From Branchiostoma floridae (taxonomy: Eukaryota > Chordata > Leptocardii > Amphioxiformes > Branchiostomatidae): a DNA stretch of 64,000 nt. The stretch is from the NCBI RefSeq assembly GCF_000003815.2, contig NC_049995.1, positions 14,956,976-15,020,975 on the forward strand. Direction: 5' to 3'. Below the pieces are notes generated by a model. It worked only from the letters and a program-made list of their open reading frames with translations. It had not been told where the DNA came from and ran no database searches. Shown here one piece after another: positions 46,201 to 59,399 of the stretch (position 1 is the first letter of the stretch; each line of letters starts with the position of its first letter). The position numbers and the translations under genes are program-made.

Positions 46201-49200
46201 TTAATTTCGAGCCCTTACCACCGCTCAAATATTTATTATTAATTTCATACACTGTAGGTTCCGCAACAAGATGGCATCGTGTACTGCCTGTCCAGAAAAG
46301 AGTGTGAGACGGTTTCAGACGAGCTGAATTGTCCCTAGCAAAATTTTGGTGCCCCCTGGCCATGGGAACACTGTTAATTTTGAGCCCTGGTATTGCAATG
46401 CAAGTTAGGTTGCCACCTCTCAAATATCTGTTATGCATGTTAGGTTCCGTAGCAAGACCGGCATCGTGTACTGCCTGTCCAGAAAAGAGTGTGAGACAGT
46501 GTCTGACGAGCTGTGTAGGAACGGCACCTCTGCCTGTGCCTACCACGCTGGCATGAGTGACAAGGAGAGGGCCCGCATTCAGGACCTGTGGCCGGAGCAT
46601 TACAAGGTACACAACTGTTACACTTTCAGTTTGTGTCTGTGTCTGTACATATGTGTGTGTGTGTGCGTGTGTGTGTCTATACCTGTGTGTATGTGTCTTT
46701 CTGATTCCCTTAGGAGAAAAAGTAAATGTTTCTGTTGTGAATTCTTACTCTTATTTGTGCCACAATAGTGTTTGGGATGGGCATAGACAAGCCGGTTGTT
46801 CGCTTCGTCATTGATGCATCTACTACTCCCTACCCAAGTCCTTACAGGGGGTGAAGTCTGCCATCTCTGACTGTTTTGTTGTTTTTCCTTTACATTATCT
46901 GTGCCACATTTGGGATGGGCATAGACAAGCTAGATGTTAGGGGATTCTGCATGCACATGTATGTGTGTCTCTCTCTCTGATGGTTTTCTAACCAATAACT
47001 TTCACTGTTTTCAGGTTATCTGTGCCACAATAGCATTTGGGATGGGCATCGACAAGCCGGATGTTCGGTTTGTGATCCACTACTCACTGCCGAAGTCTGT
47101 TGAGGGGTACTACCAGGAGTCAGGTCGTGCAGGGGTGGTGAAGTCTGCCATCTCTAACTGCCTGTTGTCTTTCTGTAGGTTATCTGTGCCACAATAGCAT
47201 TTGGGATGGGCATAGACAAGCCTGATGTTCGGTTCGTGATCCACTGCTCCCTGCCCAAGTCTGTGGAGGGGGTGAAGTCTGCCATCTCTGAGTCTGACTG
47301 CCCTGTTGTATTCTCTGTAGGTTATCTGTGCCACAATAGCGTTTGGGATGGGGATAGACAAGCCGGATGTGCGGTTCGTGATCCACTATTCCCTCCCGAA
47401 GTCTGTTGAGGGTTACTACCAGGAGTCCGGTCGAGCAGGGAGAGATGGAGAGGCCTCTGACTGTATCCTGTTCTACAACTATCATGACAAGATGAGGATG
47501 CAGAAGCTCATACACAGTAAGTCCTCACAAGTTTTCATTTTCAAGCAACTCCTTATTTTGAATAAAGAGACTCTTTTTACACAACCAAGGCTTTATTTAC
47601 ACAAAGTTGTGTTATTCAGTGTCATACCAACCTAATGAAACTACTTATGGAGCAAGAAAAAAAAGCCTTTTGGGGAATCTAGTTATGAATCCTATTGTAC
47701 AACTTACAACTGGAGAGAGGGCCACACGGACAATTTGCCACGGATTGCTCCTTCACTTTCTAATCCAGTTATGAATCCAGAAATGTGTTAAACTTAGTTT
47801 TCTTCTCTGGCTCAACCTGTAGTGGACAAAGAAGCGACCAAATGTATGAGTGGAGAGAGGTCCACATGCCTTCTGATAATTTGCTACAAAATACTCCTGC
47901 ACTGTTTTTTTAATCCAGTATTAATGCACAAATGTGCTTAACTTTTTTTGATCGCTTTAATTTTCCAGTGGACAAAGAGGCCACCTATGAATCAAGAAAA
48001 GTCCACATGGACAACCTCCTGCGCATGGTTCAGTACTGTGAGAAGGAGTCGACAAACCCAGTTACTCCACTACTTCAGCAATAAAAAAAGAAATGTGTGA
48101 CTGTTAAACTAACTGTTTTTTTTGTCCTCCAACCATCCAGTGGACAAAGAAGCGACCTATGAATCGAGAAAGGTCCACATGGACAACCTGTTGCGCATGG
48201 TTCAGTATTGTGAGAACGAGTCAGACTGTAGACGTGCCCAGTTACTGCACTACTTTGGTGAAACAGACTTCAACCCTGAACTCTGCACCAGCGACCCGAG
48301 GACCACCTGCGACAACTGCAAGCTTGAGGTACGAAGAATTTTTTTTTTTTACTTTCACCAAGAACAGGGTTCTAGCCAGGATTTTTTTACAGCATAGGGG
48401 GCATCAGGTCTGGATCTGAACCAGGACATAACATAAACTGTTTGTGAAACTTGAGTGGGCGATACTACTCAAAAGAATGGTCTATTTGGCTACAACGGAT
48501 TCTGTTTGGTGGAGTATCCTGACTGCCTCAATGTTGACTTAGACCAATTTTGACTGTAGAAACTTGGTAAAATTGACATAATCCACTCTCTTCTACTTTG
48601 CTCTTGTTATTTTCTTGGACTGGTAAACCCCAAAACATTTGAACATCTGCTACCATTGTGCAGTATGATCTGTCTATTTATTTGTTTAACCAGTCCAAAA
48701 TCCGGCCCATTGTTTGTTTTTTTTCATGTCCGTTTTTCCGGTCCGCTCCAACAAAAACAGTTTTGTAGTTTGGTACCGACCCCTAGTTACTTCAGTGTGA
48801 CAAAGTTTTAAGAAGACTGATGATAATTTTCTTCCCAAGGTGCATTTGAGATGAATTTCATGAAGGACTGTCACTATTTCTTGTTCTAGTCTGTGCTGGT
48901 TTAAGATACTCAGTAATTGACACATCTACATCAGGGCTCGAAATACTGGGTGCATGTGCACCCAGGTGCACCCAAAATTGGAACTGTGCACCCAATTTTT
49001 TTCAGTGGGTGCACCCAAATATTTTCTTAGGTTTGTGTATGGAAAGATATCAAGTACACTAGTATACATCATATTCTTGACATCTAAGTGTTAGAAAGAT
49101 AATAAAAACGCATGTTACTTGTTTAAGAATTTGATAGCTTGTAACTAAGTTTTGTTGTTAGTTTTTTTTTTTTACATTCTACTTAAATTTAAGTTGTGCA

Positions 49201-59399: not shown

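Follow-up and report, generated by a model that had tools for sequence, protein, structure and literature searches.

The window, by which we mean the whole 64-kb stretch of lancelet DNA that was analysed, carries 18 copies of a short motif, here called F, in three genes: a gene that we take to be ADHFE1 from its protein sequence (a Pfam search of it gave no match), BLM (PDB match at 3e-32) and a gene with Kelch repeats recognised by Pfam. F is ~30-40 nt long and reads (GTAA)GGGGGTGAAGTCTGCCATCTCTGA, with the consensus TGGGTAAGGGGGTGAAGTCTGCCATCTCTGA[T/C]TGCCTTGTT. A search of the window at up to 3 mismatches gave 16 matches, against 0 in 100 shuffles, and two more diverged copies in the Kelch gene, at 56216 and 56575 of the minus strand, complete the set. 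The profile built from the 18 copies gives each of them at least 27 bits, while the next best match in the window reaches 10 bits. All of them (18/18) are in sense orientation to their host gene, as the original prediction had described for the same three genes, and its coordinates for the motif agree with ours within about 15 bases.

Some copies of F form the 3' end of a longer repeat, here called L (Table 1). A stretch of about 120 bases that ends at the acceptor is common to the copies with the motif at 230 in ADHFE1 and at 44120 in BLM and to a decayed copy in another position of BLM. A decayed relic was also found in an intron of a further gene, presumably a CLK-like kinase gene to judge from its sequence, of which one exon is a weak Pkinase match. 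The MITE-like insert that lies within an L copy of a BLM intron (40892-41034) has inverted ends, TAGCCTCTACCA..TGGTAGAGGCTA, and pieces related to it occur at 3401-3598.

Table 1. Copies of F and L and exon-copy arrays in the window
Feature	Positions	Strand	Basis
F copy in ADHFE1 intron, motif at 92, GTAAGGGGG..TTTCTAG	84..143	+	pattern and profile search
L with F at its 3' end (motif 230), directly 5' of ADHFE1 exon	151..269	+	seed of L model
Decayed L/F relic in intron of CLK-like kinase gene, sense to gene	7596..7656	-	L model, E 1e-5
L copy split by MITE-like insert, motif 41082, 5' of BLM exon	40853..41166	+	halves joined by eye
Decayed L copy, core lost, 3' end of BLM intron	43068..43200	+	seed of L model
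L copy with F (motif 44120), 3' end of BLM intron	44037..44179	+	seed of L model
BLM array: five copies of one exon (four truncated), F at 46851, 47138, 47272	46751..47515	+	
BLM 3' array: three exon-piece copies (first short, partial), F at 51933, 52081	51902..52300	+	
Kelch-gene array: 10 copies of exon GMFKTDAIVCVDLKP.., nine F between	55452..57216	-	array alignment

Exon-copy arrays in the Kelch gene and BLM

The copies of the Kelch array are arranged head to tail, nine of them being truncated and the last one full, and each truncated copy runs into F. Two types of junction were distinguished. Copies 1, 2, 4, 6, 7 and 9 end after GTGGACT, GTGGAC or GGT and continue with a GTAAGG donor, whereas copies 3, 5 and 8 end after GTNATG and continue with AGGGGG. 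Copies 1, 2 and 7 are open exons of 87 nt, a length divisible by three; a stop lies in copy 4 (84 nt), and the reading frame is broken in copies 6 and 9. The mini-introns implied by the GTAAGG donors measure 47, 66 or 79 nt, so that the units of 41-56 nt proposed at the outset do not apply to all copies. Identity among seven copies of the array amounts to 93.5% in the core of F, 81% in the exon and 58% in the tail.

In the upstream BLM array no F was detected between copies 2 and 3, and in the 3' array of the same gene AAGGGGGTGAAG is common to the exon and to F. The profile search of the window listed no F before the first exon copy of the Kelch array and of the two BLM arrays. By eye, most exon/F junctions display a short shared sequence, which is 12 nt long in the 3' array of BLM, and none is clear at the Kelch junctions of the GTNATG type. 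The statement that the motif joins truncated exon copies is thus valid for the Kelch array, with its 10 copies, and for the two BLM arrays, but not for the copies at 230, 41082 and 44120, which lie in introns 5' of an exon and do not join exon copies. In addition, F is not required for exon-spanning duplication, because 12 of the 15 such duplications that we read from a self-comparison of the window are devoid of it.

Two other features of these genes are recorded here. Similar sequence around CCCAAGTCTGTG occurs at an F junction in BLM (47249-47291) and in the Kelch gene (56359-56403, minus strand), next to unrelated exons; both encode LPKSV, and this likeness is probably a coincidence. We also noticed by eye motif-free duplications on the donor side, comprising the 3' part of an exon and the start of the intron, at 315-610, 1827-2316, 43690-43948 and 44243-44561, some of which are joined via TG-rich intron sequence.

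Distribution, acceptor position and arrays across the genome

Genome-wide searches covered 513,431,437 bases in 431 contigs. With up to 2 mismatches allowed, at least 919 places match the 20-mer core of F, whereas its reversed control matches 0; the motif first noticed in the window is therefore a genome-wide one and, like introners, it exists in many near-identical copies. The core is ~20 times commoner than the flanking 20-mers of L, of which the upstream one was found in 47 places (control 2) and the downstream one, with five to six bases in common with the core, in 49 (control 4). Under uniform decay at ~20% divergence, the expected pass rate is 0.21 per 20-mer piece, that is, one copy in five. 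The 140-nt consensus of L gave at least 45 matches in the genome (40 of 466 candidates scored), and those covering most of the consensus are 77-86% identical. In this sense L behaves as a short interspersed repeat, being dispersed and having recognisable full-length copies. Neither Pol III promoter boxes nor terminal repeats were seen in it by eye. The original prediction had named, as the finding that would speak against it, a longer known repeat scattered in intergenic DNA: a longer repeat does exist, and no known named repeat was found to match it in the sources searched, which include no transposon library.

Positional counts were made on 63 loci, obtained by collapsing arrays among the exact places listed up to C8:20835537 (92 of 100). 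The last copy of a collapsed array was kept for the acceptor, AG-distance and array counts, and the first exact copy for the upstream-part and GTAAG counts; loci L052 and L053, which are 92% alike over 1.8 kb, and the similar L078 were counted separately. With a model refined on the same flanks, the upstream part of L was recognised in 24/63 loci, 23 of them above 10 bits, and in 0 reversed decoys. Pairwise alignments of the loci end on the right mostly at +21 to +33, while on the left the median is -8 and the farthest end -175, except for one duplicated segment. In a set of 18 long-repeat loci selected with BLAST, a selection that favours the core, identity is 97% in the core, against 80% upstream and 83% downstream. 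Of 12 long copies selected solely by their upstream part, six carry 2-4 mismatches in the core and the other six 8-10, which is about the random level; an exact core occurs in 0/12. Core conservation is consequently a feature of a subset and not of long copies generally.

The sense-strand and acceptor bias that had been expected from the window also holds across the genome. An exon start, defined by an automatic score as AG plus coding sequence at ~+10 to +55 in the sense direction, was found in 14/63 loci, against 2/63 on the antisense other side and 3.5% of 4,999 stretches drawn at random (p 3e-8 and 0.002), at a score cut-off of 10 that was chosen after the scores were known. Shifted positions gave 0-4 matches among 42-63 each, and lower cut-offs shrink the gap between sense and antisense (18 vs 9 and 24 vs 23); the coding score, for which 2,162 window codons served as training set with stop-bearing frames included, is a weak one. 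By eye, 18/63 loci are exon-adjacent, and no coding exon was recognised after F in the other 45, of which 22 have an acceptor-like site, compared with 5-16 of 45 in shifted controls. In the 18 exon-adjacent loci of the by-eye list, the first AG follows CTGA by 17-34 nt, for the most part the usual branch-point distance, and at L022 this first AG is not the acceptor. Ten exons following the AG of F were chosen for Pfam comparison, and seven of them matched above the cut-off (Pkinase, Kinesin, Helicase_C, zf-Sec23_Sec24, Ligase_CoA, HECT and Kringle); of the remaining three, one matched F5_F8_type_C below the cut-off, one had no match and one had a poor unrelated match.

F also joins exon copies in genes outside the window. 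It lies within a tandem array in 9/63 loci, against 8/227 background points (p 0.004, even test); this count replaces one made on 43 loci (9/43 vs 4.2% of bases, p 7e-5), which was biased toward arrays by long flanks. Two or more copies of F occur within the stretch in 13/63 loci. Arrays in kinase, kringle, SIRT5-like and BAP31-like genes, and one further array, have a repeat unit made up of F, the acceptor and the 5' portion of the exon that follows, and the full exon comes last. Pkinase and Kringle were identified by Pfam, and the names PAK-like, SIRT5-like and BAP31-like are our assumption from the sequences. The tandem unit spans the intron-exon boundary in the Kelch, BLM, PAK-like, kringle-like and SIRT5-like arrays.

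The idea that the first copy of each array is free of the motif stood only in part. It is valid for the three window arrays and for L037 and L092, where the first F detected comes after an exon-like copy, and fails in five arrays (L018, L034, L035, L036 and L040) that have F ahead of their first exon copy; in L035, the kringle array, this first F carries the long repeat. When first and later copies of F were compared in 13 arrays, the flanks were found in most of them to diverge no more than 12 nt to the left of GTGAAG, and further left in L025 (15-17) and, with one mismatch allowed, in L037 and L038; decay of the first copy can shorten these matches. At positions 1387-1843 of L069 we observed an array of F alone, in units of 42-46 bases that alternate between 42 and 45, directly before an exon that presumably belongs to a talin-like gene, a name for which there was no good Pfam match. 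A search of the genome for the Adh3 family led to an exon at C6:27454839.

Relation to mirages and origin of F

Tandem duplications across intron-exon boundaries are a known oddity of lancelets, where they are called mirages, and the paper of Canestro et al. (2002) is said to be the founding one. The accessible portions of two papers report them in globin genes, with Adh3 and other genes cited (PMC3087553), and in PGBD5 and TnC (PMC3902484). The former describes haplotype length changes and regular splicing, offers a model of intron gain and calls the mechanism "unclear". As in the mirages of Adh3, the globins BflGb6/9, TnC and PGBD5, our arrays repeat head to tail the 3' end of an intron and the 5' part of an exon in normal lancelet genes. 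The duplications are therefore not new (PMC3087553, PMC3902484). In contrast, the same portions of these papers name no sequence shared between genes, whereas here a ~30-40-nt module stands at the left edge of a subset. We found no description of F in the full-text literature searched, a collection that lacks most subscription papers. Its presence at the left edge of some mirages provides these duplications with a testable breakpoint.

We lean towards the explanation that F is a repeat-derived branch-site and acceptor module whose G-run can seed mirages. This comes close to the plainer alternative of the original prediction, a short interspersed repeat with a G-rich start that promotes microhomology-mediated tandem duplication, which fits best in view of the junction microhomology seen by eye. 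F would correspond to the 3' portion of an old repeat of ~140-175 bp that is dispersed in the genome and of which the core, far more frequent than the rest, may be under constraint. Where it stands just before an exon, CTGA[T/C] is probably the branch point, and the pyrimidine-rich stretch with its AG would act as the acceptor, a use that the observed position suggests. If so, a 20-mer at branch-point distance from exons of unrelated genes would constitute an unusual repeat-derived splice-acceptor module and would make one route to exon and intron gain accessible to experiment. The G-rich left edge of F may be the preferred start of local tandem duplication; the segment copied head to tail would begin at this edge, include the acceptor and stop within the following exon, at a site where a short sequence is shared. 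Truncated exon copies with F between them, a subset of the amphioxus mirages, would be the product, with microhomology as the putative cause, and several of these truncated copies, those with a broken frame or a stop, are probably skipped. That an exon copy stands ahead of the first detected F in five arrays (L037, L092 and the three of the window) runs counter to a simple tandem duplication starting from F. Speculatively, such arrays could come from recombination of haplotypes with and without F, or from later loss of F.

The same observations may be read in other ways. If F were a passenger, present in some of the introns that are duplicated by the rampant local tandem duplication of ordinary amphioxus mirages, the 12 of 15 exon-spanning window duplications that lack it (own reading) would be easily understood, and so would the mirages published for globin, Adh3, TnC and PGBD5 genes, as far as the accessible text of these reports goes (PMC3087553, PMC3902484). 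Nevertheless, F falls within arrays at about four times the rate of background points, and the left edges lie at or near its G-run in unrelated genes; we regard the passenger role as doubtful, though worth keeping in mind. It is also conceivable that F is the mere 3' end of an old SINE- or LINE-like repeat with 5'-truncated copies, the acceptor bias reflecting the survival of those copies that supply a branch point. The longer repeat in 24/63 loci, the variable left ends of the alignments, the 77-86% identity of long copies and the decayed core in those chosen without regard to it are in agreement with such an origin. However, the exact-core loci differ by at least 20% in the flanks of the very same copies, the pieces on the two sides of the core are equally rare (49 places for the downstream one, 47 for the upstream one), and a branch point alone would not preserve 15 nt upstream of it, for which we consider this origin unlikely.

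A third possibility, raised by the original prediction, is an introner-like mobile intron: F would insert as a complete mini-intron (GTAAGG, CTGAC, AG) and the exon copies would be by-products. A GTAAG donor is indeed found at -8 in 18/63 loci, six Kelch junctions with GTAAGG give introns of 47-79 nt, of which three follow 87-nt exons that keep the frame, and in L037, L092 and the window arrays the first F comes only after an exon copy. Yet GTAAG is absent from 14/18 exon-adjacent loci, five arrays begin with F, and 45/63 copies are, by eye, not beside a recognised coding exon. Two further observations lend no support to an introner-like element: among 17 loci with upstream sequence (8 with 750 nt and 9 with 200 nt) no F was seen to split a contiguous exon, and the three BLM introns that bear a long copy have, by eye, unrelated 5' ends. 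We consider a mobile intron of this kind very improbable. As a more ambitious and rather unlikely extension of the module that we favour, F might be a lancelet acceptor-proximal splicing element of ~30 nt, kept by selection or conversion at many introns of different, unrelated genes and read by an unknown partner beside the branch point, which would also be a hotspot for the duplication of exon pieces that feeds new exons and introns.

Several known systems bear a resemblance to F. Introners are repeated sequences with splice signals and a sense bias in genes; F is likewise repeated, sense-biased in genes and furnished with splice signals, but only the acceptor side is common to its copies and no intron-creating insertion was seen in the 17 loci with upstream sequence. 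In Alu exonization, repeats of the SINE type are co-opted as splice acceptors; F too would supply part of a 3' splice site, but it precedes existing protein exons and mostly only its short core is recognisable. Tandem genomic duplication in potato RdRp produced intron-like units as well, in a single gene according to the accessible part of that report (PMC4974935), whereas here a breakpoint sequence recurs in several genes. The words Branchiostoma, amphioxus and chordat- do not occur in the accessible main text of the introner survey by Gozashti et al. (2022, PMC9860276).

Other readings were tried and set aside. A structured RNA or snoRNA found no support, since no Rfam match reached the gathering score in the window and the folding of two of three long copies and of two short ones does not surpass that of shuffles; the decayed long copy at 43060-43200 gave z -2.49, with 1/200 shuffles as good. 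Two peptides from the upstream part of L, considered for a coding origin, had no Pfam match. Three 18-mer matches in viral contigs were judged to be chance by our own estimate, and a common intron body at the TG-rich tract that precedes the 46.7-kb array was discarded, 54/300 shuffles reaching its score.

The window contains further repeats. A second intronic repeat lies in sense orientation in ADHFE1 (699-820) and BLM (51105-51215) introns, the two copies, a pair picked by eye, aligning with a score of 77 against 52 for the best of 300 shuffles. Finally, two large minisatellites, at 60184-60828 and 62318-62972, have units of about 134 and 142 bases and carry palindromes of the ATCATTCAAATGAT type, apparently in opposite orientation.
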